Shown: positions 7,991-25,992 of the stretch, in pieces
Numbering within the stretch: the first letter of the stretch is position 1
How the letters are laid out: each line of letters opens with the position of its first letter
NCBI GenBank assembly: GCA_029568995.1
Contig: JAKPYU010000528.1
Span: 1-38,336 of the forward strand
Source of the DNA: Candidatus Omnitrophota bacterium
Lineage (GTDB): Bacteria; Hinthialibacterota; Hinthialibacteria; Hinthialibacterales; JAKPRU01
Reading direction: 5' to 3'
Length of the DNA stretch: 38,336 nt
Made by a program: the position numbers and the translations under genes
Notes under the pieces: model-generated
What the model was told of the DNA's origin: nothing
Seen by the model: only the letters and a program-made list of their open reading frames with translations
The model's database searches: none

Positions 7991-10900
7991 CTACAACCGC
8001 AACTGTGCTGTCAGCTTCCTGATGACTTCTGCCTCTTTTCCATCTTCGCAGAGAACCAAAAGACAGCTGGCACGGTCCACATCAATCGGTATACTCAATC
8101 CGCTTTCAGTCCGCTGCGGCTCGAATCTCTCATACGTTTTCCAGCGCCTGTCCTCATATTCTCCGACCACAACCACCGGCTGCTGAAATCCGTGCTCGTA
8201 CAGCTCAAGATCGCCCTGGTCCACAGGAAAAACGACCAATTCCGATGTCTCAAAGATCGGTTTCACGCCCAAGGAACAAAGCATAATCCCGCCGGCGGAT
8301 CGCAGTATCCGCTTTCCGTCAATCCGCAACTCCCCGCCACCCTCATACACAAGCAACTTCTCGCTGAGTGTCCGGAAGAACAGCGCCCCTCGTCGCCCCG
8401 ACAACGTAAAAGACACGTTCGATGTTCCCAGATTTGTTGTGTACTCAACAGGCGTTTTGTCATCCGCCATCCGGAAGAATACGTAGGACTCACCGCGTCG
8501 ATCTTTCACTCGAAATGCATGAACCTGTGGATCGTCCGGCGTGATAATATTCCGTTCGATAGAGGCCCCTGATATCGCGGCCCGATACGGCAAGGGGCCT
8601 TGGAGTCGGCTCGGATAAATCTCTGCGGGCCAGGGCAGAAAATGAACCGTGCCCGATCCGACCGATGCCGTCACTGCAGAGGGAGTTCCCGCACTTTCCG
8701 GATACTCCAGCGGCAGATGCTCCGGCGGCGGATCAAGCCCCAGCCGTTGATGGCGCTCGAGGCGAGTCCGCTGACGATTCCGATCATAAGCAATATCTCC
8801 GGAAAAATAGACAGTCCCACCCTTCTCAATGAACTGACAAACTTTCTCGAACGTCTCGTCCAGCGGGCAATAGGGAATGGGCCACACAAGCAGCTTCACT
8901 TCTTTCGGCAGCTTCGCGAGATCCCATTCATTGATTGTTCCGAAATCCACGTGCTCCGAAAAGATCCACCGTGCCGCATTCATCACGCCATCGGTGACCT
9001 GGCGTGCCTGGCCTCCCATTCGGTGTGAATCGGGAACCAGCAGAAAGACTTCCGGCTGCCGGTCGAACGGTCTTAGAAAGGATGTGAACAAAGCCATGTT
9101 CCGATAAATCTTTGCCCAGTCTTTATCCACGCCGTCCTGGCGATAAGTCAATCCCCATGGAAACTCGGAGCCGGGCATATCCTTCAGGCACCAATTCAGC
9201 ATAAATCCGGCCCCCATTCCAAACGCTTCGTGTGCCACTGTCATAAATCGATTTACCGACGGCTCAGTGAACAATCCCTCCTGGCCCTTCACACGACCGT
9301 CATGCGCTTCCTGAGCGCCGAGTTCTCCCAGCGTGAACGACTTTCCCTCAAATCGCCGGTCGGACAGTTTCAACGACGCCGGGAAACGGTCCACCGGGCC
9401 GTAATAGTGCATATTCGCAAAATCCTGGTGTTCCAGTGAAAGAAGCTTCTCCGCACTCTGGTAGTCCGCCAGGAATCCCACAGTAGCCAGAGCCTCCGGA
9501 TTCCCTTCCTTGATTCCCGCTGCATTCTCCGCAATCCACCGCTTCAGTAGCTCCGTGCGGAACAGGTTCACATCCAACCGCCGCACATTGCTCCAGGAAT
9601 CGGGCGTATCGCTCAGCGGAACTGCGCCCAGAGGGGCCTCCGGTGGTGATTCCTTCCATGCTGCTTTTAGAGCCTCGTCCGTGCCGTATGTCTTACGGAG
9701 ATATTCGTTCCAGAGTACCTGCATTTCGGGAGTCTGGGGAATACCGATATTCGGTTCATTCTGAATATCGAATAGGATCCCCGGTTCCTTCGCATAACGG
9801 CTTACCCAGAATCGATTCCATTCCCGCTGTGCCTTCAGCTCCTCGTCGGTCAGCTCCTCTTCCAGCCAGTCATGAAGAGAAAGAAACAACACGATTCCCT
9901 CGTTCTGGCAGGCGTGCAACAGCGCATCGGTCTCATCCACCAGCAGCGGTGGCGGCGGGACCTTCAAATCCAGCGAACTGTGGTTTGCGACTCCCTCATA
10001 TCCGCGTGCCCCGAAAGGTGAGAAATGCAGCACACGCAAGACTCTCAATCCATGGTCCCGCATCCATCGCAGGTCATGCCTCCACACCGCAGGATTCTCC
10101 AGCGGAGAAAACCAAACCTCTCCCGTATGATTGGTTCCGAACAGGAAAGACGGCCGTCCTTCCATCACAAAGCGGTTTGCACGGAAGTCCACAACGGATG
10201 CGGTGGGGCTTTCATCCCTCGGAGCGACAACCACGCCGCCATAAATGGAGTCAACCACTTTCTCGTTCTGCACAAGATCCACATGGAACACGCCGTTGGT
10301 TTGAGCCAGGCGGTTGGAGTTGACCGCATCCCACGCGAATCCCTGCACACCACCGGGTGCCAGCGTGATGTCCTTCTGCTCGATTCTCCGTCTCGATAGC
10401 ATCAGGCGTAGTTGGCCTGCAAATGGCTGTGAACCGAAATTCGCCGCGGTGACATTGACTGTCGTAGTTGTTCCCGTGGCGCAATACACCGGATTGCACG
10501 CGGTGTGTACAAGAAACGCCCGCCGCCGGAGTATCTGAACCGTATCCACCAGCACATCGCGCAGCGGACTGTCTTTCTGAGTGAAATAATCCTGGTTCGT
10601 GATTCCCGAAAAGGCCCATGCCGAGCCTTTGAACGGCCCCTCATGATGAAACATGACCGCCAGCGCGCTCCCGCGTGACCGGCCATACCGATCCTGCGCA
10701 TCCAACAGTGAAATCCACCGGGCGTAATTGACCGGAAAAACGGGATTGTTGCTGCCTGTCATGGCGGTAGCCGCGAACCCTTCCAGGCTGGTTTCCAGCT
10801 CGATTTTCCTTTCCATCTGGAACTGATCCCGCCGCGTCACAACCCTCTGGACCCGTTGAAATAGGTAGGTCGGATCGAAAATCGGGATCTGATCGGGGCG

Positions 10901-11383
10901 CAACGCCATGGTATCTCCGGGCGTCCCATACCGGCCCGAAAGCCGCTCCTCCGGCAGGATTTCCTTTTTCTCGACCCATTTGTCTCCCTCACGCACACAG
11001 AGGCGATCGAACGCATATCCGCCCAGGCTGATGAAACATCCGCCCGACTTCAGGTAGTTCAGAAATGACTCGCATGCAGCTAAGGGGAAGAAAGAACCAT
11101 TCGGCAAAATGAGAATATCGAAACGGGCCGAAGTAAAACTCTTGGGGTCCTGGATTTGAAATCCGTCCACCATCACGGATTGGATTCCCTGGTCCTTCAA
11201 GAACGGCGACAGGTCCAGCGGCTCGCCTTTCGATGGTGTCTCCGGGAAACTCCCCGTCAGAATTCCCACCACAGGTTCCGCCCCGACTGGCAAGACCGCC
11301 ACCATCCCCAGCATCAAGACACACAACCAAACCAACAAGGCCGCAGGGCAACCACTGGGGATTGCCCCTGCAATATCCGCCAT
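7991..11383 (-). CDS. Large secreted glycoside hydrolase-like protein with GATase-like domains
   Basis: With the start at the ATG at 11383 the protein has 1130 residues. It begins with a signal peptide (hydrophobic core AALLVWLCVLMLGMVAVL, likely cleavage after VGA near residue 35). Residues about 37-125 look like a class-I glutamine-amidotransferase-type fold (DILILPNGSFFP, GGCFISLGGYAF). A beta-rich segment follows, then a TIM-barrel glycosidase region (about 395-740). Two clan GH-A-style catalytic glutamates stand at E543 (DIQNEPN) and E687 (TLGELGAQ). A second GATase/trimerisation-like part (VKLLVWPIPYCP, GGTVYFSGDIA) and beta-rich domains end it. The combination resembles GH5/GH42-type enzymes; the substrate is unknown. 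The frame is open to 11707, but those codons are translated palindromic repeats, so the longer start is rejected. An alternative ATG lies at 11455. Confidence 0.75.
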   Translation of the reverse strand: MADIAGAIPSGCPAALLVWLCVLMLGMVAVLPVGAEPVVGILTGSFPETPSKGEPLDLSPFLKDQGIQSVMVDGFQIQDPKSFTSARFDILILPNGSFFPLAACESFLNYLKSGGCFISLGGYAFDRLCVREGDKWVEKKEILPEERLSGRYGTPGDTMALRPDQIPIFDPTYLFQRVQRVVTRRDQFQMERKIELETSLEGFAATAMTGSNNPVFPVNYARWISLLDAQDRYGRSRGSALAVMFHHEGPFKGSAWAFSGITNQDYFTQKDSPLRDVLVDTVQILRRRAFLVHTACNPVYCATGTTTTVNVTAANFGSQPFAGQLRLMLSRRRIEQKDITLAPGGVQGFAWDAVNSNRLAQTNGVFHVDLVQNEKVVDSIYGGVVVAPRDESPTASVVDFRANRFVMEGRPSFLFGTNHTGEVWFSPLENPAVWRHDLRWMRDHGLRVLRVLHFSPFGARGYEGVANHSSLDLKVPPPPLLVDETDALLHACQNEGIVLFLSLHDWLEEELTDEELKAQREWNRFWVSRYAKEPGILFDIQNEPNIGIPQTPEMQVLWNEYLRKTYGTDEALKAAWKESPPEAPLGAVPLSDTPDSWSNVRRLDVNLFRTELLKRWIAENAAGIKEGNPEALATVGFLADYQSAEKLLSLEHQDFANMHYYGPVDRFPASLKLSDRRFEGKSFTLGELGAQEAHDGRVKGQEGLFTEPSVNRFMTVAHEAFGMGAGFMLNWCLKDMPGSEFPWGLTYRQDGVDKDWAKIYRNMALFTSFLRPFDRQPEVFLLVPDSHRMGGQARQVTDGVMNAARWIFSEHVDFGTINEWDLAKLPKEVKLLVWPIPYCPLDETFEKVCQFIEKGGTVYFSGDIAYDRNRQRTRLERHQRLGLDPPPEHLPLEYPESAGTPSAVTASVGSGTVHFLPWPAEIYPSRLQGPLPYRAAISGASIERNIITPDDPQVHAFRVKDRRGESYVFFRMADDKTPVEYTTNLGTSNVSFTLSGRRGALFFRTLSEKLLVYEGGGELRIDGKRILRSAGGIMLCSLGVKPIFETSELVVFPVDQGDLELYEHGFQQPVVVVGEYEDRRWKTYERFEPQRTESGLSIPIDVDRASCLLVLCEDGKEAEVIRKLTAQLRL

Positions 11384-11703
11384 TGTCTCTGCGATGTTCT
11401 TTGTTGCCGCTGTGATGCAGGCCGTAGGGGCAGGCCCCCGTGCCTGCCCGGCCATCGTGCCGTTCACCCTCTCCCTCCTGTCTTTTCTCCCTCTCCCTCC
11501 AGGAGAGGGTTGGGGTGAGGGATTTCTCGGGTGGCACCAACATTCTGCCGGTGAACCTGCAAACATGTGTGGCTGCGCACCTGGATTCCAGTTTTCGCCA
11601 GAATGACGGATTGACATTCCCTCTCCATCAGGGAGAACCGCTCTTCTCCCCCTCTCCATACTTGGAGAGGGGGCCGGGGGGTGAGGAAGGCAATAGCGTC
11701 TCA
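11384..11703. repeat. 320-bp intergenic cluster of palindromic repeats
   Basis: Three perfect hairpins lie between aspS and the hydrolase gene. At 11428-11449 the stem is GGGCAGGC with a six-base loop. At 11489-11509 the stem is CCCTCTCC, followed by TTGGGGTGAGG. At 11648-11673 the stem is a ten-base CCCCCTCTCC with a six-base loop, followed by CGGGGGGTGAGG. A degenerate copy lies at about 11618-11637, and a GGATTCCAG-TTTTCGC-CAGAATGACGG type repeat at 11583-11611. None is followed by a T-run. The region is open in the hydrolase frame only because the repeats happen to lack stops. Confidence 0.75.
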
Positions 11704-13524
11704 TCATTCTTCCTTCGGTAGATTCAACTGGATATAAAGTTCATCCAGCTGCCGTTGGCTGACCGCACTGGGCGCTCCGGAACAGAGATCCTGGGCGCGC
11801 TGGTTCTTGGGGAACGCGGTAATCTCCCGCAGATTGTTTTCATCGGCGTAAATCATCACAATTCGGTCGACCCCCGGCGCAATCCCACCGTGCGGCGGCG
11901 CGCCGTACGAAAAGGCGCGAATCATGTGCCCGAACTTCGCGTCCACTTCTTCTTTGCTGTATCCCGCAATGGAAAATGCCTTGTACATGATGTCGGGACG
12001 ATGATTTCGGATCGCACCGGAAGAAAGCTCGATCCCGTTGCAGACAATATCGTACTGAAAGGCCAGGATGTCCAGCGGATCTTTTGTTTCCAGTGCCTCC
12101 AATCCTCCCTGGGGCATTGAGAACGGATTATGCGAAAAGTCGATTTTCTTCTCTTCTTCGTTGTACTCGAACATCGGGAAATCGACAATCCAACAGAAAG
12201 CCAGCGTATTCTCTTTCCCCTTCAGAAGATCGAGATGTTTCCCAAGACGGGTGCGGACTTCGCCCATCAAGGCGCAGGTTTCCGACCACTTTCCGGCGCT
12301 GAAGAAAACCGAATCGCCTGTCTTCACGCCCAATCGTTCGATCAGTCCCTCGCGTTCCTTATCGGAGAGAAACTTGGCAATCGGACCGTCGATGCGATCC
12401 CCGCGAAACAGTAGATAGGCAAGCCCTTTCGCCCCTTTGCTTCGCGCGAAATCCTCCATGCCGTCATACCAGGACCGGCTTTCCTTAACTCCACCGGGGA
12501 ATCGGATCGCCTTGATCGCGCCCCCGCTCTGGACCGTCTTCGCAAAGATATTCAACTGGCATTCGCGAAAGATGTCCGAAACATCCTGGATTTCCAGATC
12601 GAACCGGATATCCGGCTTATCCGATCCGTATCGATCCATCACCTCGCGATAGGTGAACCGGGGGAATGGACTCTCCTGGATCTTCTTCTCGGAGATCGCC
12701 GGAGTCATGTCGGTAAACAGTCCCTCTACCACGTCGAAGACGTCTTCCTGGGTACAGAACGACATCTCCAGATCCAACTGGTAGAACTCACCGGGAGACC
12801 GATCCGCGCGGGCATCCTCATCCCGAAAACACGGGGCAATTTGAAAGTATCGGTCGAATCCGGACACCATCAACAATTGTTTGAACTGCTGGGGAGCTTG
12901 CGGCAGCGCATAGAATGTGCCGGGATTCAGGCGACTGGGTACCAGGAAGTCCCTCGCGCCCTCCGGGGAGCTGTTCGCCAGAATCGGGGTTTGGATTTCC
13001 AGGAATCCCCGACGGTGCATATAGTCCCGGATATACCGAATCACCTTGTCCCGGTACACGATATTCTGATGCAGATGCTCCCGTCGGAGATCCAGGAATC
13101 GCCAGATCAGGCGAAGCTCTTCATTGGTTTTCTCTTCATCGGCGATGGAGAAGGGAACCTGTTGCGCGGCAGACTCTACCTGGACAAACTCCACCCAGAC
13201 CTCCACTTCCCCCGTCGGCAGCGTCGGATTGACCGTCTCATCGCTTCGACGCATCGCCATGCCTTTAACGGTAAGGACGCTCTCAACTCGAACCTCCTGG
13301 GCAATGTGGAAATTCTCCCGATTCCGGTCGAAGTGAAACACAATCTGCGTGATCCCGAAATGATCCCGCAAGTCGATGAAAATTAACTGGCCGTGATCTC
13401 GTTTCCGGTGGACCCAACCGGAAAGGGTTACATTCTGATTCTCGTGTTTCAGCCGAAGCACTCCGCATGTATGGGTTCGATAAGGGTGTGCAGGATCTCC
13501 CTGTTTGGGTATGGAATGACTCAT
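11704..13524 (-). CDS. aspS: Aspartate--tRNA ligase
   Basis: This is a 606-residue class II aminoacyl-tRNA synthetase that loads Asp on tRNA. It has an N-terminal OB-fold anticodon-binding domain ([19 protein letters not shown]) and motif 2 as [19 protein letters not shown]. The bacterial-type GAD insertion domain lies in the middle. The C-terminal motif 3 region is [12 protein letters not shown]. The length is normal for the bacterial type. The frame starts with a TTG two codons before the ATG at 13524; the ATG ([10 protein letters not shown]) is preferred. Whether it is discriminating or also charges tRNA-Asn cannot be decided here. It is divergent from the small plus-strand genes that follow. 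Confidence 0.97.
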
Positions 13525-14188: not shown

Positions 14189-15304
14189 TTATTGCTTCCC
14201 AATCCTCCGATATACCTCCAGCGTCTGCTCCGCAGTCCTCTGCCAGGAGAAACTTCTGGCGCGAGCCAGCGCCTTCTCTCGCCATTCCGTCAAGTTTCCT
14301 TGGTTCCACCATTCGGTCATTCGATTCTCCCAAACCGATGAATCGGACGGATCCAGCAATAATCCGCCGTCTCCTACAACCTCCGGCAATGAACCGCGAT
14401 TTGAGCAGATTACCGGTATCCCGCAGCTCATTGCCTCCAACGGCGGAAATCCGAATCCCTCAAACAGGGAAGGGAACACAAAGAACCGACTTCCGCAATA
14501 GTAACGACGCAGTTCCTCATCGCTCTGCACATAGCCGATAAACCGGATGCGGTCTCCTAAATCCAGTTCCTTTTCTGTCGCGAAAATACTCTCATATAGC
14601 CATCCCTTCTTGCCGATCAGCACGAAATCCCCGTCAATGCTCCCTTTTCTCACACAATTCGCGTATGCCCTCAAAAGGAAGGGGATATTCTTTCTTGGCT
14701 CCAGCGTTCCCACACAGAGGATATAGTCTCGTTCCAGGTTCCTCTGTTTGCGGAATTGAGCAATCTCGTCCGGATTTTCGACAGGCGCAAATACAGGATC
14801 TGCGGCCAACAATGTGGCCGTGATCTTCGACGCTTCAATACCTAGATTCCGTATAAGATCGGCCTTTGTAAATTCAGAATTTGCAAGGATATGTGTCGAT
14901 TTCCGGATTAACTTGGGAACGGTGTAATTCCAGATCAGCCGGGTTGCCCAATCCTTATGTTCCGGGAAATGAGCAAACGCCAGATCGTGGACTGTGATGA
15001 TGCCTTTTCCGCCATGCCATAGCGGCATCCCGATGGATGCCGTGTGAAACAGATCGACAGGTCGATTGCGCAATTGCAGCCGTAAAAGAGTCTGTGCCCA
15101 GAATGTAGTGCTGGGAATCGGGATCACGTCCGAAGAGAACCGATCCGACAGACCCAGGTCAGGCAGGATCTTGTTGGAATAAATGGTGTACCGTTCGTTG
15201 CCGGACAGTGAATCAAGAGCCTTCAACAGGCGGGAGAGGTAGAATCCGATTCCCGCTCGCTTCGCGGTCAAACACGATCCGTCGATTCCGATGTGCAGGC
15301 CCAT
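14189..15304 (-). CDS. GT4 family glycosyltransferase
   Basis: This 371-residue GT-B fold glycosyltransferase starts MGLHIGIDGSCL. The N-terminal domain has the usual glycine-containing turn (RAGIGFYLSRLL) and an ITVHDLAF strand. The C-terminal donor domain has LCVGTLEPRKNIPFLLRAY (196-214). The conserved E-x7-E pair is E282 and E290 in FEGFGFPPLEAMSCGIPVI. This pattern fits GT4 mannosyl- or glucosyl-transferases of polysaccharide synthesis. The frame extends to a GTG at 15319, five codons upstream and next to a tandem repeat; the ATG at 15304 is preferred. It follows the methyltransferase/ATP-grasp gene by about 160 bases on the same strand, so it may share its pathway. The donor sugar is unknown. 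Confidence 0.9.
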   Translation of the reverse strand: MGLHIGIDGSCLTAKRAGIGFYLSRLLKALDSLSGNERYTIYSNKILPDLGLSDRFSSDVIPIPSTTFWAQTLLRLQLRNRPVDLFHTASIGMPLWHGGKGIITVHDLAFAHFPEHKDWATRLIWNYTVPKLIRKSTHILANSEFTKADLIRNLGIEASKITATLLAADPVFAPVENPDEIAQFRKQRNLERDYILCVGTLEPRKNIPFLLRAYANCVRKGSIDGDFVLIGKKGWLYESIFATEKELDLGDRIRFIGYVQSDEELRRYYCGSRFFVFPSLFEGFGFPPLEAMSCGIPVICSNRGSLPEVVGDGGLLLDPSDSSVWENRMTEWWNQGNLTEWREKALARARSFSWQRTAEQTLEVYRRIGKQ

Positions 15305-15463
15305 GAATCGTTGTCCCACGGGGTCGGAAATACCGTGCAGAGGCGGTCCCGTTGAACCGACGGCATTGGGGCCACGCCGTAGGGGCGGTCCCGTTGAACC
15401 GACAGCATTGGGGCCACTCCGTAGGGGCGGGTCTCAGACCCGCCCCTGCATTCGTATAATCAC
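15305..15463. repeat. 42-bp tandem repeat ending in a perfect palindrome
   Basis: Two and a partial third copy of a 42-bp unit start at 15337, 15379 and 15421. Copies 1 and 2 share GGCGGTCCCGTTGAACCGAC and GCATTGGGGCCAC with few changes. The third copy keeps GTAGGGGCGG and then runs into an 11-bp perfect palindrome arm GGGGCGGGTCT (15424-15434) with its complement at 15436-15446. The gap lies between the ATP-grasp fusion stop and the GT4 start. It holds no gene. There are too few copies, and no unique spacers, for a CRISPR. Confidence 0.8.
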
Positions 15464-17470
15464 TCACAACGGCTGCAAACCAAGGCGCTGCTCGGCAGCG
15501 TGCAGAACCGCGCCCAGCGTCTCTTTGTAAGACATCCCGATCAATTTGGCCATTTTCGCCAGGTGTCCGTCCCAGCACCATCCCGGATTCGGGTTCACTT
15601 CCAGCAATTTCGGAATTCCTTCCGCATTCAAACGCCAATCCAGCCGGGCATAATCCCGGCACTCCAATCGCTCAAACAAACGCAACGACGATGCGATCAG
15701 GAATTTCTCCGTCTCTTCCGAAAGACTCGCCGGGATGGACTGAAGACGCGCGTAAGGCGAATTCGGGTCCCATTTTGCCTCATAACCGCAGATCCTCGGT
15801 AATTCCGGCGGTAAAGATGAATAATCTTCCTCGATGATCGGCAACACAATGTAAGAATCCGGGGGATTCCCGATGATTCCCACACTCAGGTCTTTGCCGG
15901 TCAGGAACTCCTCCACGAGAACCGGCTTGTCGTAACCGAATTTCTCCCGAATGTCCGTGATGGCGTTCACCAGGTCTTCCGCGTTGTTGGCGATACTCTT
16001 CTGGGTAATCCCGAAGCTGGAATCCCCGAAATTGGGCTTTACAATCGCAGGAAATCCAAAGGAGATCTCCGAACTGGTATCCTCCGGTTTTACCAGCCAG
16101 GCTTCCGGAACGGGGATATCCATTTCCTTTGCCAATCCACGTGTCAACGACTTGTCATAGCAGATCCCCAGGCATTGCGGCCCGGCACCCGAATAGGGAA
16201 TTCCAAGAATCTCGAGCAGGGAAGGCACGTGCAGCTCATACCGCGCATTGTTGCAGAATCCCTCATCGCACAAATTCATAACAAAATCCGCTTTCCCTTT
16301 CAGATTCCTCATCTCGTTCAGAAGCGTATCGTGGTTATCCAGGTAGTGAAACCGATAGTCGGTCAATTCCCGCAACGCCCCTTTCATCTGGTCCAGAGTG
16401 TAAAAGTCATCGTCATCGAATACATTCTGTGGCTTGAGCGTGTCGATCTTGCGAGGATCGCCTGTAATCACGGCCACATTCCGAATGGCCTTCTTGGACC
16501 GCTTTTTGGGAGTCCATTCTTTCTTGACGACGGCGGTCAGAATGATTCGCCGCTTCATCATGCCGAGGTCCTGATTTCGGCGTGAGTCCGGCGAATAGGA
16601 CCCATGCAAAGCAAAATCCGAGAATCCCACCGTCTTCAACAATTCTTCCAGGGATCCCGGTGTGTAAAGTCGCTCTGCGTAGAAATGATCCGCAATCACT
16701 CCCTTCTTGATGTGGGTAACCACCTCTCGCGAAATGATCCGTTGCCCATCCAGGGAGAGCGAGCGCTCTCGACAGACAAACAGATCTTTGTCAATCCATT
16801 CCCAGGATCGCGGATCGAAATTCTCCTTGAGATATTCCCCGTCGGCCACATCCATTAAAAGGCGCCCCCAGGGTTTCAACACGCGAAACACCTCGCTCAG
16901 GACTTTCAGGTCTTCCTGGACGGTTTCAAAAAAACCGAAACTATTCCCCAGGATCATCACGACATCGAACGTGTCTGAAGGATACGGCAACTTGCGTGCA
17001 TCGCCCTCCCGAAAACGGGTTGTCAGGCCGATTTTTCTCGCATCCTGCCGCGCTTTCCGGATCAAATAATGCGAACGGTCCAACCCTTCCACGTTGATGA
17101 ATCCACGCCGGGCCATCTCCAGGGAATGACGACCCTGGCCGCAGCAGAGATCCAGAACCCGGTCCTCCGATGACAAGTCCAGAATGCCGGTGAAGAATCC
17201 GATCTCGGTGCTGGTGATCTGGCTGTCATCTACCAGGTCTGCGTCCGTCTTGATGTACAGTGAATTGAAAATGCGCCGCCACCAGTCGGGCTGCACATAC
17301 TCCTCTATATTGGCAACGGACCCCAGGCATTTTGAGGAGCCGTTGCCGTTCCCATTGCCGCCTCTCTTGCGAAGAGCAGATTCAGCGAGGGTATTGCCTG
17401 TATTCTGCATCTGTCCAATGTTCCTTTCCGATTTGATCGATCTGTCGCCTCTTTCGGCTAAGACATTCAT
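15464..17470 (-). CDS. SAM methyltransferase fused to a D-Ala-D-Ala-ligase-like ATP-grasp enzyme
   Basis: A 668-residue two-domain protein. Residues about 55-315 form a class I SAM-dependent methyltransferase: motif I VLDLCCGQGRHS at 105-116, EGLDRS at 128-133, EGDARKLPY at 155-163, VLKPWGRLLMDVADG at 197-211. Residues about 330-668 form a D-alanine-D-alanine ligase-like ATP-grasp enzyme: PYSGAGPQCLGICYDKSLT at 425-443, IVKPNFG with K478, VEEFLTGKDLSVGI at 519-532, YARLDWR at 607-613, and the metal site LLEVNPNPGW at 622-631. The ligase joins a carboxylate to an amine with ATP; the fused methyltransferase may modify the substrate or product. The first 50 residues are low-complexity (GGNGNGNGSS). 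The frame stays open without a normal start codon to 17584, so the true start is uncertain. The neighbouring GT4 hints at envelope or small-molecule work. The pathway is unknown. Confidence 0.85.
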   Translation of the reverse strand: MNVLAERGDRSIKSERNIGQMQNTGNTLAESALRKRGGNGNGNGSSKCLGSVANIEEYVQPDWWRRIFNSLYIKTDADLVDDSQITSTEIGFFTGILDLSSEDRVLDLCCGQGRHSLEMARRGFINVEGLDRSHYLIRKARQDARKIGLTTRFREGDARKLPYPSDTFDVVMILGNSFGFFETVQEDLKVLSEVFRVLKPWGRLLMDVADGEYLKENFDPRSWEWIDKDLFVCRERSLSLDGQRIISREVVTHIKKGVIADHFYAERLYTPGSLEELLKTVGFSDFALHGSYSPDSRRNQDLGMMKRRIILTAVVKKEWTPKKRSKKAIRNVAVITGDPRKIDTLKPQNVFDDDDFYTLDQMKGALRELTDYRFHYLDNHDTLLNEMRNLKGKADFVMNLCDEGFCNNARYELHVPSLLEILGIPYSGAGPQCLGICYDKSLTRGLAKEMDIPVPEAWLVKPEDTSSEISFGFPAIVKPNFGDSSFGITQKSIANNAEDLVNAITDIREKFGYDKPVLVEEFLTGKDLSVGIIGNPPDSYIVLPIIEEDYSSLPPELPRICGYEAKWDPNSPYARLQSIPASLSEETEKFLIASSLRLFERLECRDYARLDWRLNAEGIPKLLEVNPNPGWCWDGHLAKMAKLIGMSYKETLGAVLHAAEQRLGLQPL

Positions 17471-17700: not shown

Positions 17701-19305
17701 TCACGAAGCAACTTGATGTTGAATGGCATGATGTTCCTCGTGATTCCGATTATCAATCTCCAATTCTCTCTTCCGAGGGACCCGAATGAAACTTCTACCG
17801 ACCTGTCCATGCCGTTCACGAAATCGACTCGCTTTTTGTGCTTGAGGGCATTCCGACTCAGGTCGGTTCCTTTCGCCTGTATTCCCCCGGACTTTCCCCG
17901 CTCCAAGCGGCTGTGATATCCCGGGTGTCCAACCCCATCGTTCTAACCATCTCCGTGGCGTTTCCCATGGAAATTCGTCCGCAATGGCTCCCACGGTGTC
18001 CCGTAGGCATTCCGCGATAGAACGAGTGCTCCGGTCAAAGGTTAACGACCAATGTGCCACCAGGATGATCGCAGCCAACCGTCCCAGCGAAGAAAGCGCA
18101 AATGTCGCATGGTAATGCAGAACCTCGAAGGATCCAATCTGAAAGAAGACTTGCGGCAGAAAAGTTGTGATCAGACCACCCGTCATCGAGCCGAGTACAA
18201 AAGACGGACCGGAGAAAAATCCCAGCAATCCGTAGGCATATTGACGTTCGCTTTGTCCGCACAAACGCTGAGGCCAGCTGAACACGGCCATATTGAATCC
18301 CGACCAACCGATTCCCCCGAGCACGGACGCTATCCACACCGGCCATACGAATCCCGGATGACTGGGTATCCAAACCCAGACATGCAAGGCGACTAATGTC
18401 CCGCTTGTGATCAGAACAGCTCGATCTCCGACACGGTCCAGTGCCCGTCCCCACAAACGACTCGCCGTCAGGGCCGTCATACTGGCCAATAGCGCCTGGT
18501 ATCCCATCTCCGCCGGCGACATGTGCAACACACGCACCATGTGGACTCCAAACAACGCCGACGCTACTCCCAGGGAATACTGCCAGAACGAATAGAACAT
18601 GATGAACTTCCGTAACGCCGGTTTCGTCTTCAACGGCGCAATCAACTGCCGCGCGGAAATTCGAGGTAACGGCATCATTTTCGGCTCGTACTGACGCAGC
18701 AGCATCCATGCCGCAAATGCCGCCGAGGCAATCGCCACACCGAAACAGATCGTGTATCCCAATGGGGCCATCCCGTTCGAGCGAAACTGTGTCAAAAGCT
18801 GGGACCCCACAAACAATGCCACCAGCGAGGTCAGCCCCAGGTACGTGTTCCGCAAACCATAGTAAGAACCTCGAATCGTGGTCGGAACCAAGTCTGTCAT
18901 CCAGGAAAACCACGCATTTGCCGCGATCACGGCGCACACATTCGCGCCAAACAACACGAACACCATCAGGGCGTGTCGTATGGCAGGAGGCCACTCAACG
19001 TACATAAGACCGATCAAGGCCAGCCAGGAAATTCGATGCAGAATGGAAAAAACTGCCGTCACCGGTTTCCGTGCCTGAAGACGACGAACCAGAATCGGCG
19101 ACAGGAAATACCCGAACTGTGTTAAAAATGGCAGGGATTCGACCACGCAACACAGCAGATTCGATGCACCCTGGTCAATGACATAATTGGTCAGAAAAAT
19201 GCCCTGAGTCAGCACCATGTGAATGGTGGCAAACACTGCTTCAATCGTGGAGCACTTCAGCCCCGACCGGATAGACTCCATTTCACTTCGGAGATCTCGT
19301 CTCAT
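17701..19305 (-). CDS. MFS transporter (putative efflux permease)
   Basis: The protein (534 residues from the ATG at 19305) has about 12 hydrophobic helices between residues 20 and 440. It has MFS-type loops, for example YFLSPILVRRLQARKP after helix 2 and RLWGRALDRVGDRAVLITSG in the second half. The rest, about 90 residues, is polar, rich in Arg, Glu and His and unlike a permease tail. Another frame over the same bases (17649-17906) reads equally well, so the 3' end may be frameshifted. The gene begins about 20 bases after the tetR stop, so the two form one transcript. A TTG at 19329 overlapping that stop is an alternative start. TetR-MFS pairs often export drugs or toxic metabolites; the substrate is unknown. 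Confidence 0.8.
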   Translation of the reverse strand: MRRDLRSEMESIRSGLKCSTIEAVFATIHMVLTQGIFLTNYVIDQGASNLLCCVVESLPFLTQFGYFLSPILVRRLQARKPVTAVFSILHRISWLALIGLMYVEWPPAIRHALMVFVLFGANVCAVIAANAWFSWMTDLVPTTIRGSYYGLRNTYLGLTSLVALFVGSQLLTQFRSNGMAPLGYTICFGVAIASAAFAAWMLLRQYEPKMMPLPRISARQLIAPLKTKPALRKFIMFYSFWQYSLGVASALFGVHMVRVLHMSPAEMGYQALLASMTALTASRLWGRALDRVGDRAVLITSGTLVALHVWVWIPSHPGFVWPVWIASVLGGIGWSGFNMAVFSWPQRLCGQSERQYAYGLLGFFSGPSFVLGSMTGGLITTFLPQVFFQIGSFEVLHYHATFALSSLGRLAAIILVAHWSLTFDRSTRSIAECLRDTVGAIADEFPWETPRRWLERWGWTPGISQPLGAGKVRGNTGERNRPESECPQAQKASRFRERHGQVGRSFIRVPRKRELEIDNRNHEEHHAIQHQVAS

Positions 19306-19325
19306 GTCAATAAAACCAAATACAA

Positions 19326-20030
19326 TCAATCTCCATTAAGATTCAGTATTTCCTCAATTTCACCCTCCAGGAGAAACGCCGATGAGGTTGCCACAAACGC
19401 TCGACGAAGCGGCTCCCCACTCTTTTCCACTTCCTCCGGGGCCATCCCATTCACGGCGAAGGAGAAGAGTCCCGACACAAATCCGGCAATCGCACACGCA
19501 AGCCGACGTATCCGAAGAGGGGCCACCGGCCTCGGTATGAACCGCGCGACCTCACGGCGGATTCCTTCGAGATAATTCAGATAGGACGCATCCGGCTCCT
19601 CCGAACTGTCTCGCTGCAGTTGAGGAAAAACACGCTCCTGAAACAGCAACAAAAACTCATTCGGATATTTCTGGAAAAATTCCGAATGCGCCTGAATCAG
19701 ACGCTCTATCGCCTCATCCAGGCTTCGACATTCCTTCTCCGCCTCCGACATCCGCTCCAACAAGTGGTCCACGGCATCTTCCACCAGTGCCGCTGCAAGC
19801 GCTTCCTTATTCGTGAAATGTCGATAAAAAGTCCCTTTGCCGACATCGGCGCGTTCCGTAATCTCTTCAATCGCCGTATTCCCAACTCCCGACTCGATGA
19901 ACAGAGCAAGCGAGGCCTCTTTCAGGCGCTGACGAGTCTGCAAGGCACGTCGTGTTGCCCGACCGAGTGATGCATTCTCTGCCATCTTGCCTTGGTCTCT
20001 CTTTCGAATCATTGAGTCAGATATGACCAT
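19326..20030 (-). CDS. TetR family transcriptional regulator
   Basis: A 234-residue regulator. The N-terminal helix-turn-helix is clear (LALFIESGVGNTAIEEITERADVGKGTFYRHFTNKEAL in pieces across residues 41-78). TIGTFY-type recognition appears as VGKGTFYRHF. The helical C-terminal ligand domain carries no recognisable signature. ATG candidates lie at 20030, 20012 and 19985. The first has an AGGTGA ribosome site five bases upstream and fits the promoter at 20046-20074, although the leader would be short. A perfect inverted repeat sits between its -35 and -10 boxes, the classic layout for self-repression. It is expected to control itself and the downstream MFS permease, and possibly the divergent unit. 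Confidence 0.9.
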   Translation of the reverse strand: MVISDSMIRKRDQGKMAENASLGRATRRALQTRQRLKEASLALFIESGVGNTAIEEITERADVGKGTFYRHFTNKEALAAALVEDAVDHLLERMSEAEKECRSLDEAIERLIQAHSEFFQKYPNEFLLLFQERVFPQLQRDSSEEPDASYLNYLEGIRREVARFIPRPVAPLRIRRLACAIAGFVSGLFSFAVNGMAPEEVEKSGEPLRRAFVATSSAFLLEGEIEEILNLNGD

Positions 20031-20716: not shown

Positions 20717-20852
20717 TTGATTTTTGTGTAATCTATAAGATGCATTCAAAAATATTCTGTTTCGGTCAAGACCATCGATCTCAACTCCAATCCCAACAAG
20801 AACAGAAATCTGCGTTTCTTCCATTTCACCGCAGTAGACAGGGAGTTTCGTG
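20717..20852 (+). other. Leader of the hox operon
   Basis: The 136 bases between the Rrf2 remnant and hoxE hold a ribosome site (AGGGAG about eight bases before the hoxE ATG). No convincing promoter with correct spacing is seen: TTGATT and TATAAG are only 11 bases apart. The operon may therefore be read from the promoters upstream of the Rrf2 remnant. Confidence 0.35.
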
Positions 20853-21398
20853 ATGCCCGAATCCGCAATAGATCCCAAAGTGGATCGCGCTTTTCTCGAT
20901 AACCTGATTACCCAGTGCCGTCACAAACCTGGAGCACTCCTGGCCATCCTGGAAAGCGCCCAGGATCACCACCCGCGCAAGTATCTTACGAAAGAGGCTC
21001 TGGAGTATATCGGCAAGGAGATCGGGGTCTCCCGATCCCAAATCTACAATGTCGTAACCTTTTACTCTTTCTTTAACCTGACCCCCCAGGGTGAACACTG
21101 CATCACGATCTGCCGGGGAACCGCCTGTCACGCCAGGGGATCGAAAAAGATACTCGATTTCGTGAAGGACATGCTCCAGCTCCAGGAAACCAATTCCGGC
21201 TATGCGGATAAATTGTGCCTTACCACTCCGGACAACCGATTCACCGTCCGAACGGTGGCCTGTTTCGGCCAGTGCGCCTTGGCGCCCGTCGTTTCCGTGG
21301 ATGAACGTATTTATGGCTATATGACTTGCCAGAGAATGCGAGAGATCGTCGAAAAGTTGGACCACGAAGCAGTGGAGCCGGTCCCGTTGTTTATCTGA
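20853..21398 (+). CDS. hoxE: NiFe-hydrogenase diaphorase subunit HoxE (NuoE-like)
   Basis: A 181-residue NuoE/HydC-type protein that carries one [2Fe-2S] cluster in a thioredoxin-like fold. The ligands are C87 and C92 (CRGTAC) and C137 and C141 (CFGQC). The helical N-terminus (YIGKEIGVSRSQIYNVVTFYSFF) is conserved in the family. A GTG one codon upstream is possible; the ATG at 20853 has the better ribosome site distance. It is the first gene of a five-gene run hoxE-F-U-Y-H in the order known from cyanobacterial bidirectional hydrogenases. It passes electrons between the flavin subunit and the Fe-S chain in the cytoplasm. Confidence 0.92.
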   Translation: MPESAIDPKVDRAFLDNLITQCRHKPGALLAILESAQDHHPRKYLTKEALEYIGKEIGVSRSQIYNVVTFYSFFNLTPQGEHCITICRGTACHARGSKKILDFVKDMLQLQETNSGYADKLCLTTPDNRFTVRTVACFGQCALAPVVSVDERIYGYMTCQRMREIVEKLDHEAVEPVPLFI

Positions 21399-21460
21399 AT
21401 GCCGGGTTTCGAGTAAACCGCCAGGAGCGCCACAAGAACGGACGAATTTGAGGAACCGCA

Positions 21461-24400
21461 ATGAGCGATATGCGAATCAATGATCTGAATATGCTCCATG
21501 TTGTTCAGGAAGCGGGGATGAGTAAACTCCTGCCCGGTAAACCCCGCATCGCCGTCGGGATGGGCACGTGCGGTATCGGCAACGGTGCACAGGAGGTCTA
21601 CGATCTCTTCTATCACGAACTGCACGATCAGGGAGTTGATGCCTATCTGACAAAGGTGGGTTGTTTCGGATTCTGCGCGGAGGAGCCGCTGGTCAATGTA
21701 TTCGTACAGGGCTATCCCCTGCTGATTCTCCACCGGATTAATACCGATGATGTCAAAGGCATTGTTGACCTGGTCGCGGAGAGAAGACCACCGGTCAACA
21801 AGATCCTTTGCAAAATTGAGGAATGGAATCACCTGACCGAACGCGTTACCTACGGGCATGGAATCCCCGACGTTCCGACATGGGATGAAATCCCGTTCTA
21901 TAAGTATCAAAAGAAAATCGTCCTTCGAAACTGCGGGCTGACCAATCCCGAGGAAATTGATGAATACATCGGGATCGGTGGATACCAGGCACTCTACAAA
22001 GCCCTGTATGAGATGTCCCCAGATCAAGTCCTGGATGAAATCAAAAAGTCCAAGTTGCGGGGCCGAGGTGGGGCTGGGTATCCCACGGGGATCAAATGGG
22101 AACTCCTGAAACGTGCAAAAGGCGACCGGAAATATCTGGTCTGCAACGCGGACGAGGGGGATCCAGGCGCCTACATGAATCGTAATGAAATCGAGGGCGA
22201 TCCGCACATGATGCTGGAGGGGATGATCATCGGCGCGTATGCCACCGGCGCAACCGAGGGGGTGATCTACATGCGGGCGGAATATCCCCTTGCGGTGGAA
22301 CGGCTGAAACGCGCGATCGCTCAGGCACGCAACCATGGTCTTCTCGGCGAGGGGATCATGGGAACCCCGCTCTCCTTTGAGGTACACGTGGTGGAAGGCG
22401 CAGGGGCTTTTGTCTGCGGGGAAGAGACCGCCCTGATGGCCTCCATCGAGGGAAACGCCGGCAGGCCGCGACCCCGACCGCCATTCCCTGCCGACAAGGG
22501 GCTTTGGGGTTGCCCGACCAATATCAACAATGTCGAAACCTGGTTCAATATCCCTATCATCATTGCCAAAGGTGCCTGGTGGTTCGCTCAAACGGGCAAT
22601 GCCACCAGCCCCGGCACGAAAGTCTTTTCCCTAGTCGGCAAGATCAAGAATACCGGCCTGGTGGAACTTCCCCTGGGATCGCCTCTTCATACCATTGTCT
22701 ACTCAATCGGCGAGGGAACCGGCACAAACCACAAGGTGAAAGCCGTCCAGACCGGCGGCCCCTCCGGAGGATGTATCCCCGCTGAACTATTCAACACTCC
22801 CGTGGATTACGAATCTCTCGCCTCTCTCCGCTCCATCATGGGATCCGGTGGGATGGTCGTATTGGACGATGAAAACTGCATGGTGGACGTCGCTCGGTAC
22901 TTCCTGGAGTTCACTCATTCCGAATCATGCGGCAAGTGCATTCCCTGTCGAGTCGGTTTAGATCACGCCTTGCGCATCCTGACGGATGTCACGGAAGGCA
23001 AGGCTGGCATCAATGATCTCGAAGAACTGGGCAATCTTGGCCGGGTCATTCGCGATACCGCTCTTTGCGGTCTCGGACAAACCGGTCCCAATCCGGTTCT
23101 GACCACATTGAGACATTTCCGTCAGGAATACGAAGAACACATCCTGCAGGGCCGATGCCGGGCCGGGATCTGCGAGCATCTGTTTCTCTCTCCCTGTGAG
23201 AACAGCTGCCCGCTCCACATGAACATTCCGGTATTCCTTCAGCTGTTGAAAGAAAACCGCCTGGAGGAGGCCTGCGAACTGATCCAACTCGATAATCCCT
23301 TGCCTGCTTCCACAGGCCGAGTCTGCGAACACCCCTGCGAGGTCCGATGCAGGCGCAAGGATATCGACAACCCGGTCTCGATTCGGGAAGTTCACCGCTT
23401 TCTGGCTGACCTGATGTTCCGCAATGGGATGCGGAACATCGTGCTCGACAGGCTCCTGGCGCGGAAATTCCCTCCCACCGGAAAGTCGATCGCCGTGGTC
23501 GGTGCCGGACCCGCCGGATTGACGGTGGCCTTCTATCTCTGCCTTCTCGGACATGACGTAACGGTCTACGAAGCCTTTCCTGAAGCGGGCGGGATGTTGA
23601 AATACGCCTTGCCCGAATATCGATTGCCGAATTCCGTTGTGGACCGGGAAATTCAATTCATCGAAAACTTGGGCGTTCGCTTCGTTTTCAACACACGGAT
23701 CGGCGCAGACAAAAAACTCCTTGAACTCGACCAGGAATACGACATCACCTTTCTCTCGATTGGAACCTGGATCGGTATAACAACCGGCTTGCCCGGCGAG
23801 CATCTGGAGGGTGTGGTTCATGGCCTCACTTGCCTGGAAGACGTCTCTACCGAAAGGAAATTCGATCTGGGGAATAACGTTGTTGTGATCGGCGGCGGGA
23901 ACGTGGCCATCGACGCGGCTCGTACCTCCATCCGCAGAGGAGCCGATGTCACCGTGGTCTATCGGCGGGAAGAAGCGGATATGCCTGCAATTCACGAAGA
24001 GGTGGAGGAAGCTAAGGCGGAGGGTGTCAAGTTTGTCTTTTTGGCCGTACCGAAAAGCATCATCGAAGGTACCCCCGGAAAAGTGAAAGGCATTGAACTG
24101 ATCAAAACCCGGATTGAGGGATATGAACCGTCCGGACGCCGCAAGCAGGTTCCGACAGGCGAGGCATTTGCCATCCCCTGCGATACCGTCATTCTGGCCA
24201 TCGGCGAGCGAGTGGATTCCCAGTTCATTCGAGAATCCAAAATCGAAGTCTCGGAGGGGGGGACTGTCAATGCCAATCCATTCGGTTTCGAGACGAGTTC
24301 ACAAAATATATTCGCTGGTGGAGATGCCGTTACCGGGGCCTCGAATGTCTCGGATGCCATGGCAACCGGCAAAAGAGCCGCGGCCTTCATTGACGAACGG

Positions 24401-24619
24401 CTTACAGGACAGAAACGATTCAAACAACTCTGGCCCTCCTATCCCATCCATAACGATGTTCCACTCGAGCCGCAGGGAGGCGAACGGAACGCCGTTCGGA
24501 TTATTCCGGTTTCAGAACGGCAGGCCAACTTCAATGAGGTCTCTCTGGGACTGGTGGAGGAGCAGGCACAAAAAGAAGCCATTCGCTGTCTGCGATGCGA
24601 TGTCAAGGAGGCCTCCTGA
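21461..24619 (+). CDS. hoxF: HoxF/NuoF-type NADH-flavin subunit fused to a GltD/NfnB-like FAD module
   Basis: At 1052 residues this is roughly double a normal HoxF or NuoF. Residues 25-120 are a thioredoxin-like Fe-S domain with C37, C68 and C72 (the usual fourth Cys is absent). Residues 130-560 are the NADH/FMN subunit: GRGGAGYPTGIKWE (201-214), CNADEGDPGAYMNR (228-241), an SLBB part, and the [4Fe-4S] ligands C490, C493, C496 and C536. Residues about 565-1052 are a glutamate-synthase small-subunit-like module. It has two Cys-rich motifs (C566, C571, C579, C583; C622, C626, C630), FAD site GAGPAG (681-686), a second dinucleotide site GGGNVA (811-816) with arginines (RRG, VYRREEADMP) typical of NADPH binding, and FAGGDA (951-956). 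The end has another CxxC (C1043, C1046). GAGGA precedes the ATG. No stop or frameshift interrupts the join, so it is a true fusion as sequenced. Expected role: exchange electrons with NAD(H), and perhaps NADP(H), for the hydrogenase. Confidence 0.93.
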   Translation: MSDMRINDLNMLHVVQEAGMSKLLPGKPRIAVGMGTCGIGNGAQEVYDLFYHELHDQGVDAYLTKVGCFGFCAEEPLVNVFVQGYPLLILHRINTDDVKGIVDLVAERRPPVNKILCKIEEWNHLTERVTYGHGIPDVPTWDEIPFYKYQKKIVLRNCGLTNPEEIDEYIGIGGYQALYKALYEMSPDQVLDEIKKSKLRGRGGAGYPTGIKWELLKRAKGDRKYLVCNADEGDPGAYMNRNEIEGDPHMMLEGMIIGAYATGATEGVIYMRAEYPLAVERLKRAIAQARNHGLLGEGIMGTPLSFEVHVVEGAGAFVCGEETALMASIEGNAGRPRPRPPFPADKGLWGCPTNINNVETWFNIPIIIAKGAWWFAQTGNATSPGTKVFSLVGKIKNTGLVELPLGSPLHTIVYSIGEGTGTNHKVKAVQTGGPSGGCIPAELFNTPVDYESLASLRSIMGSGGMVVLDDENCMVDVARYFLEFTHSESCGKCIPCRVGLDHALRILTDVTEGKAGINDLEELGNLGRVIRDTALCGLGQTGPNPVLTTLRHFRQEYEEHILQGRCRAGICEHLFLSPCENSCPLHMNIPVFLQLLKENRLEEACELIQLDNPLPASTGRVCEHPCEVRCRRKDIDNPVSIREVHRFLADLMFRNGMRNIVLDRLLARKFPPTGKSIAVVGAGPAGLTVAFYLCLLGHDVTVYEAFPEAGGMLKYALPEYRLPNSVVDREIQFIENLGVRFVFNTRIGADKKLLELDQEYDITFLSIGTWIGITTGLPGEHLEGVVHGLTCLEDVSTERKFDLGNNVVVIGGGNVAIDAARTSIRRGADVTVVYRREEADMPAIHEEVEEAKAEGVKFVFLAVPKSIIEGTPGKVKGIELIKTRIEGYEPSGRRKQVPTGEAFAIPCDTVILAIGERVDSQFIRESKIEVSEGGTVNANPFGFETSSQNIFAGGDAVTGASNVSDAMATGKRAAAFIDERLTGQKRFKQLWPSYPIHNDVPLEPQGGERNAVRIIPVSERQANFNEVSLGLVEEQAQKEAIRCLRCDVKEAS

Positions 24620-24757
24620 CAGGCGGTGAAATGAAAAGAAAAAAAGAGGGTGGCACAGGCAGCTGGTCGGGGAAATGGAGGGTGGAACAGGCTTCCAGCC
24701 TGTGATGAAGAGAACCCGTAGTGAGGCAGTCCACAGACAAGAAGATTGGACGACACG
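24620..24757. repeat. Gap between hoxF and hoxU with a short palindrome
   Basis: The 138-base gap is unusually long for this tight operon. It contains a hairpin ACAGGCT-TCC-AGCCTGT (24687-24703) within a GGTGGAACAGGC type repeat, plus a purine-rich start. It may have arisen by repeat insertion. Only a weak GAAG ribosome-site candidate precedes hoxU. Confidence 0.55.
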
Positions 24758-25468
24758 ATGAGCAAAGAATTCACAATCAGAATCAATGGCAGGGATCTTT
24801 CGGCCCAGGAAGGAGAAACAGTTCTCGATGTGGCGCGGAGATCCGACATCTATATTCCCTCACTGTGCCATTTAAAGGGACTATCGCCGGTCGGTGCCTG
24901 CCGTCTCTGTCTGGTCGAGGTGAAAGGTGTGTCTCGCCTGGTTCCTTCCTGCACAACCTATGTGCATGAGGGGCTGGACGTGATTACCGATTCGGAGCGC
25001 ATACAGAAATGCAGAATGGTGATTCTCCAACTCCTGTTCTCGGAGCGGAACCACACCTGTTCGGTCTGTGTCTCCAACGGCCATTGCGAGCTGCAGGCCA
25101 TCGCCGAAAACCTCGGAATGAACTATGTCCGGTATCCCTATCGTTTCCCGGCGCTGGCGGTTGATGCGTCTCATGAAAAATACGCCATCGACCACAACCG
25201 CTGCATTCTTTGCACCCGCTGTGTTCGGGCCTGCCAGGAGGTGGAAGGCGCACACACGCTGGAGATCATCGGACGCGGTGTTCATTCGCTTGTCCTGGCC
25301 GATCTCGATGGGCTGTGGGGGGAATCCCAAACCTGTACCAGCTGCGGCAAATGCGTTCAGGTTTGCCCTACAGGCGCACTATTCGAAAAAGGAAAAGCGG
25401 TAGGCCAGATGAAAAAACGTGATGAGTTTCTGCCCTACCTGATGTCCATGCGGAGTCTGAACCGATGA
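24758..25468 (+). CDS. hoxU: NiFe-hydrogenase diaphorase Fe-S subunit HoxU
   Basis: A 236-residue Fe-S protein, a short relative of NuoG and HydA. The N-terminal [2Fe-2S] ferredoxin fold uses C37, C48, C51 and C65. A His-Cys3 [4Fe-4S] site follows (H98, C101, C104, C110). Two classical [4Fe-4S] motifs close the protein: C149, C152, C155, C159 and C193, C196, C199, C203. These wire the flavin subunit to the hydrogenase. The length is that of HoxU, without the extra domains of bifurcating HydA. A TTG four codons upstream is less likely than the ATG. Its stop overlaps the hoxY start (ATGA), indicating coupled translation. Confidence 0.94.
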   Translation: MSKEFTIRINGRDLSAQEGETVLDVARRSDIYIPSLCHLKGLSPVGACRLCLVEVKGVSRLVPSCTTYVHEGLDVITDSERIQKCRMVILQLLFSERNHTCSVCVSNGHCELQAIAENLGMNYVRYPYRFPALAVDASHEKYAIDHNRCILCTRCVRACQEVEGAHTLEIIGRGVHSLVLADLDGLWGESQTCTSCGKCVQVCPTGALFEKGKAVGQMKKRDEFLPYLMSMRSLNR

Positions 25469-25992
25469 GAAAAATACGACTGGCCACTGTTTGGCTCGAT
25501 GGGTGTTCAGGATGTCACATGTCGCTCCTGGACGTGGATGAGCGAATTATTGAGTTCGCCAACCGGATCGAGATTCTCTGCAGCCCCCTGGTCGACCGGA
25601 AGGAATTCCCGGATGCCGTAGATTTGACACTGGTGGAGGGGGCCATCGCCAGTGAGGAAGATCTGCAGAAAATTCGCCTCATCCGAGAACGGTCAAAAGT
25701 CTTGGTTGCGTTGGGGGATTGTGCTGTCACCGGCAACATCTCCGGTATGCGCAACTCGTACCCGGTGAACGCAATCCTCCAGCGCGCCTATGTTGAAAAT
25801 GCAAAAACACGCAACGGATTCCCACAGCAAGGCCTTCCCGTGCTGCTTCAACGATGCCGACCGCTCCATGAAGTCGTTCCCGTCGATCTCCACGTGCCGG
25901 GATGTCCTCCGAGAGCCGACCTGATCTACGCGGTTCTGAAGGCCATCCTGGAGGGACATCTTCCCCAGAACATCCATACCCGTTTCGGATGA
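25465..25992 (+). CDS. hoxY: NiFe-hydrogenase small subunit HoxY
   Basis: A 175-residue small subunit of a cytoplasmic group 3 NiFe hydrogenase. It holds the proximal [4Fe-4S] cluster through C14 and C17 (DGCSGCHMS), C86 (LGDCAVTGN) and C147 (VPGCPPRAD). It has no twin-arginine signal and no C-terminal ferredoxin-like domain, as in other Hox enzymes. The start overlaps the hoxU stop and its stop lies 12 bases before hoxH, so translation is coupled. Confidence 0.95.
   Translation: MRKIRLATVWLDGCSGCHMSLLDVDERIIEFANRIEILCSPLVDRKEFPDAVDLTLVEGAIASEEDLQKIRLIRERSKVLVALGDCAVTGNISGMRNSYPVNAILQRAYVENAKTRNGFPQQGLPVLLQRCRPLHEVVPVDLHVPGCPPRADLIYAVLKAILEGHLPQNIHTRFG

Follow-up and report, generated by a model that had tools for sequence, protein, structure and literature searches.

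Bacterial N-acetylglutaminylglutamine amide (NAGGN) is a capped dipeptide osmolyte formed by an N-modifying domain acting together with an ATP-grasp ligase, and the mycosporine pathway employs the O-methyltransferase MysB and MysD, an ATP-grasp enzyme resembling d-Ala-d-Ala ligase (Ddl). Two papers on mycosporine-like amino acids (PMC9918943, PMC11983340) place a methyltransferase (MT) and a Ddl-like ligase on one small metabolite. In belactosin and cystargolide assembly, the carboxyl methyltransferase CysG and the ATP-grasp enzyme CysD serve one peptide pathway (PMC11427300). These known MT and Ddl-like ATP-grasp pathways (mycosporines and cystargolides) use separate genes, located behind a valiolone-type synthase in the first case and within a multigene cluster in the second. 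Here we describe a gene of a Candidatus Omnitrophota bacterium in which the two domains form one protein; unlike the systems above, it has no cluster, and no valiolone-type synthase gene is conserved near it. Its likeness to NAGGN synthesis, which uses an acetyltransferase instead of a methyltransferase and a different ATP-grasp branch, is one of analogy only. The preliminary description of the locus had no assigned function to offer for this pairing; we likewise found none, and our literature search returned no paper describing the combination of an MT with a Ddl-like ATP-grasp domain.

The window (the whole 38,336-nt stretch of contig JAKPYU010000528.1 analyzed here) contains a 668-codon frame without stops at 15464-17470 on the minus strand, which encodes one protein with both domains. 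Translation probably starts at Met21 (window position 17410), giving a protein of 648 amino acids, because the region upstream of this codon carries an in-frame stop in two same-genus relatives (entries L007/L008/G001/G002) and frame-breaking indels in the DNA alignment. The gene and its surroundings are as follows.

14189-15319, minus strand: GT4 glycosyltransferase, a neighbor only, whose adjacency to the fusion is not kept outside the genus
15464-17410, minus strand: coding sequence of the fusion, taking Met21 as its probable start (open reading frame extendable to 17470)
15485-16483, minus strand: ATP-grasp domain of d-Ala-d-Ala-ligase fold, residues about 330-662 (PF07478; Foldseek matches to Ddl structures)
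16526-17338, minus strand: class-I SAM-dependent MT domain, residues about 45-315 (Pfam Methyltransf_25/31/11; structure 9ri2)
17701-19329, minus strand: MFS transporter, same-strand neighbor of the fusion
19326-20030, minus strand: TetR-family regulator, overlapping the MFS gene

The fusion claimed in the preliminary description proved to be genuine. Both halves were recognized by Pfam within the single frame (Methyltransf_25 at residues 105-202, E 2e-20; Dala_Dala_lig_C at residues 448-652, E 1e-25), and the conserved two-domain frame was present in more than 150 genomes, so the fusion is not a product of chance or an accident of the source genome. In genome_contigs the protein recurred at 80 further loci with 57-96% identity, spanning about 20 bacterial and archaeal phyla, and additional genomes carried it down to 51% identity. 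A separately encoded version was considered for a single genome of a Bacteroidota class (G323), in which the linker divides the protein into two overlapping frames; this may reflect a frameshift or an assembly error. Within the window's phylum, 6 of 14 genomes had the fusion, as did 51 of 150 in Methanomicrobiales (the order of a Methanomicrobiaceae carrier), 23 of 119 in an Asgard phylum and 4 of 196 in a Bacteroidota class, and carriers were mostly of anoxic or subsurface origin. Additional copies were observed at two archaeal loci: a Lokiarchaeia contig (L042, 4655-5647) has an extra, divergent ATP-grasp half with degenerate motifs directly upstream of the fusion, and one Methanomicrobiales genome (G108:C1) has three fusion copies, including one that is truncated C-terminally.

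Both halves are under strong purifying selection. Between the window gene and its same-genus counterpart L008, dN/dS was 0.011 for the MT and 0.031 for the ATP-grasp half, and other pairs were mostly below 0.15 with a maximum of 0.23; because synonymous changes far outnumber amino-acid changes in each half, both appear to be kept for function. AlphaFold2 modeled each of the two domains with confidence (mean pLDDT 82.5), but the pTM of 0.55 leaves their relative placement uncertain, so direct channeling between the domains would go beyond what the model supports.

The N-terminal half displays the Rossmann core and SAM motif I of class-I SAM-dependent MTs and belongs to a common, uncharacterized family, an unfused copy of which is 34% identical. 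Its best solved relative is 9ri2 ("Methyltransferase, putative"), and among the NCBIfam models listed no MT model of a known-substrate subfamily came near its cut-off (best 60 of 158 bits). Three motifs stand out in the alignment of 52 relatives.

17126-17152, minus strand: SAM motif I DLCCGQGRH, residues 107-115, invariant or nearly so
16925-16948, minus strand: GNSFGFFE, residues 175-182, mostly invariant
16556-16579, minus strand: fusion-specific RNQDLGMM, residues 298-305, with D301-M305 invariant in the 52 fused proteins

Part of the second motif recurs as SFGYF in an unfused MT from this family. WEW and RNQDLGMM are motifs of the MT half's own, and RNQDLGMM is not found in the nearest unfused MT.

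The C-terminal half matched d-Ala-d-Ala ligases in Foldseek with a target-normalized TM score of about 0.8. It was compared with the canonical Ddl encoded elsewhere in the same genome (G000:C489, E 1e-70), the separate ddl whose presence the preliminary description had left to be checked. The corresponding segments of the fused domain are listed here.

16403-16420, minus strand: FDDDDF, residues 351-356, where Ddl has EREVS (first-substrate amino-group site)
16007-16039, minus strand: ATP-binding KPNFGDSSFGI, K478-I488, from alignments of relatives and the genome's own Ddl
15770-15787, minus strand: GYEAKW, residues 562-567, corresponding to the loop YDYHSKY/YDYEAKY of Ddl
15635-15652, minus strand: YARLDW, with the Ddl-type Arg R609 and Mg ligand D611
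15563-15601, minus strand: EVNPNPGWCWDGH, the conserved Mg site EVN followed by an altered acceptor end, with WDGH replacing TSHS

The fused domain has the Ddl-type fold and the ATP and Mg residues. K478, S485, K566, R609, D611, E624 and N626, which in Ddl serve ATP and the acyl phosphate, are retained and invariant or nearly so across 52 aligned sequences, as are D611/R613 and the segment E624-x-N626-P-N-P-G. The motifs originally singled out (SAM motif I, K478, DWR and EVNPNPG) are therefore real and nearly or fully invariant, and intact motifs together with low dN/dS make it probable that, as suggested, both halves are active. The substrate ends differ from those of the genome's own Ddl, which reads EREVS, GSSVGI, YDYHSKY and NTIPGFTSHS: FDDDD takes the place of EREVS, W567 that of Tyr and WDGH that of SHS (the acceptor end reading WCWDGH), D354 and D355 are invariant in the 52 relatives, and the canonical series EREVS...YDY-x-x-KY...TSHS is absent from the fused domain. 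The altered ends align with the regions that, in established Ddl structures, contact the first d-Ala at its amino group and the second at its carboxylate, and substrates other than d-Ala are therefore expected. The fused domain scored well under every curated Ddl/Van cut-off (PRK01372, 122 of 243 bits; TIGR01205, 116 of 246 bits), and in the tree the genome's own Ddl falls outside the single clade formed by the fused ATP-grasps (support 99/96). Thus, the fusion shares the ATP-grasp fold and most catalytic residues with Ddl and VanA-type d-Ala-d-Lac/Ser ligases but differs from them in its first-substrate and acceptor motifs, its fused MT, its separate clade and its occurrence in wall-less archaea.

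The nearest unfused relatives found for the ATP-grasp half are about 30% identical to the fusion and lie in operons with a KamA-family gene, whereas the fusion stands alone and they lack the MT. Among the top matches from relatives and plasmids, the unfused ATP-grasps L098-L102, L087 and L089 adjoin a KamA-family gene, and a Sinorhizobium homolog (L088) lies near a diaminobutyrate aminotransferase; the KamA of L102, at 492 bits, falls short of the 525-bit cut-off set for the lysine 2,3-aminomutase model. KamA-linked and fused ATP-grasps both fall outside Ddl (support 99/98), the exact sister of the fused clade being unsettled, and the second ligase of the KamA-linked pairs has a GY-x-AKW motif and an NP...D ending like those of the fusion. 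That these relatives mostly adjoin KamA-like or diamino-acid genes points to the fused half as a ligase for amino acids other than d-Ala, and suggests unusual amino acids as substrates of the wider clade. The hint of a β-amino acid need not extend to the fused clade, because KamA had no match in 6 of 20 fusion-bearing genomes. A dependence on KamA and β-lysine was dropped on this ground and on the weak difference in AblA, the acetyl-β-lysine enzyme, within Methanomicrobiales (29 of 51 carriers, 39 of 99 non-carriers); kamA lies within a few kilobases of the fusion in a few methanogen genomes only.

The KamA loci are of interest in themselves. A conserved cassette of a lysine-2,3-aminomutase-like KamA and two tandem Ddl-like ATP-grasps occurs in L099 (7957-11883), L102 (6101-11162), L098 (7366-10662), L100 and L101, and is present in order-mates of the window without the fusion (G005, G007). 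In places it includes a cysteine-rich YkgJ-like protein and a GNAT protein; in L099 and L102 the tandem ATP-grasps lie between the two. The cassette looks like an undescribed β-amino-acid peptide pathway. On conjugative plasmids, a KamA-type gene adjoins a Ddl-like ATP-grasp together with a gamma-glutamyltransferase and a 7TM protein in Bradyrhizobium (L087, 2423-7188) and together with diamino-acid synthesis genes in Thioflavicoccus (L089, 2479-7960).

On balance, we judge it probable that the fusion is a stand-alone bifunctional biosynthetic enzyme that turns amino-acid-type substrates into a small soluble metabolite, a methylated amide or dipeptide. Most likely, by analogy with the mechanism of the families, the C-terminal half would, like Ddl, use ATP to convert an amino-acid-like carboxylate to an acyl phosphate and would couple it to an amine acceptor other than d-Ala, while the N-terminal half would methylate substrate or product from SAM on N or O; together the two steps could convert common metabolites to the final compound. 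In this scheme we infer the amide bond, the non-d-Ala amino-acid substrate, that both halves act on one molecule and that the product serves as a small metabolite, and an osmolyte, a protectant or an exported compound would so far be indistinguishable as its product.

Such a self-contained two-step enzyme would explain how a single gene moves between bacteria and archaea without a partner operon. In a tree of 83 fused proteins, phyla and domains were interleaved, with seven changes involving archaea, at least two of them forced by well-supported branches, a pattern that fits repeated horizontal transfer. The closest relative of the window protein outside its genus came from a Brocadiia bin, bin taxonomy being taken from record titles, which can be wrong. 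No full-length copy was present in the phage, plasmid and viral-contig collections. We propose, more tentatively, that this gene, spread horizontally across domains, is by itself the pathway to a methylated, dipeptide-like metabolite not described before (a protectant, cofactor or signal) and common to bacteria, methanogens and Asgard archaea.

The genomic neighborhood is consistent with a gene that works without a fixed partner, since no neighbor is conserved: clustering of all open reading frames around the loci revealed no gene family recurring beside the fusion across phyla. The order TetR-MFS-fusion-GT4-AspRS is kept within the genus, and GT4 and MFS adjoin the fusion only there (L008); the link to the GT4 gene drawn in the preliminary description consequently did not survive the neighbor check, which showed no cross-phylum partner. 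The 106 same-strand neighbors annotated with Pfam were dispersed over different families, among which MFS (5), AAA (4), CorA (3) and CitMHS (3) were the most frequent. Two candidate associations were rejected: GshB/RimK-like ATP-grasps near four loci were of mixed kinds, with a LysX-like form within a lysine operon and a RimK-like form beside a desuccinylase-like gene, and the sole match to a defense system was a generic MT match to mad2.

In one specific version of the preferred reading, the single enzyme would produce an N-methylated dipeptide, comparable to NAGGN, that serves as a compatible solute or protects against stress. A single, horizontally spread gene without an operon would suit this role, and ion-transport genes (CorA, MgtE, SLC13-like, Kef, Trk and MscS) recur as neighbors in unrelated lineages. 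The transporter enrichment is marginal, however: polytopic membrane proteins made up 14% of direct neighbors and 7% of farther genes (p = 0.10), reaching p = 0.04 for membrane transport among same-strand neighbors only, and a membrane-transporter link was not retained. Carriers also come from many habitats that are not obviously saline, and the fusion does not clearly track AblA, so we consider this version unlikely. Separately, an EmrB-like MFS gene lies 3' of the fusion, at most 30 bases away or overlapping, in three unrelated lineages (L012, L015 and L064) and is a candidate exporter of the product; an MgtE gene precedes the fusion by 50 bases in L012 and L015.

Counting against a small-molecule product, both the MT and the ATP-grasp family also have proteins, RNA and lipids among their targets. 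The ATP-grasp enzyme RimK and the KamA relative EpmB both act on translation proteins. The fusion could similarly add an amino acid to the end of a protein, RNA or lipid that the MT then caps or methylates, as in RimK action or EF-P aminoacylation, and a single-copy, highly constrained, partnerless gene in both domains of life would be in keeping with this. Its ATP-grasp half, however, belongs to the Ddl branch, whose characterized members use free small substrates, and its patchiness within even one order, Methanomicrobiales, is unlike a core translation modification; we regard modification of a macromolecule as rather unlikely. Improbable, too, is the use of carboxyl methylation as protecting or activating chemistry, in which the MT would make a methyl ester so that the ATP-grasp couples the right carboxylate: cryptic carboxyl methylation has a precedent in an ATP-grasp-ligase pathway (PMC11427300), but the loci share no esterase, lactone synthetase or other partner gene around the fusion. 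The earlier proposal of a variant Ddl for an unusual envelope unit or cell-wall precursor, for which the Ddl fold and the adjoining GT4 gene of this genus speak, is very improbable and largely refuted by the separate canonical ddl, the altered substrate motifs, the absence of conserved linkage to glycosyltransferase or Mur genes around the loci and the wide occurrence in Methanomicrobiales and Asgard archaea, which have no peptidoglycan, pseudomurein being confined to Methanopyrales and Methanobacteriales (PMC11915815).

Annotation from one half alone, as "d-alanine ligase" or "methyltransferase", would wrongly assign cell-wall chemistry to archaea. One strongly constrained enzyme with two intact active sites is common to a third of the sampled Methanomicrobiales genomes, a fifth of the sampled genomes of one Asgard phylum and scattered bacteria of about 20 phyla, and the product of this stand-alone gene could be a metabolite common to many uncultured anaerobes.

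Elsewhere in the window, translations on the strand opposite to the fusion (20850-25992) resemble NuoE/NuoF, NuoG and the small subunit of NiFe hydrogenase, and were judged to form a bidirectional hydrogenase-type operon. A 1,238-aa open reading frame at 7991-11707 looks, from inspection of its translation, like a secreted glycoside-hydrolase-type (β-galactosidase-like) enzyme.
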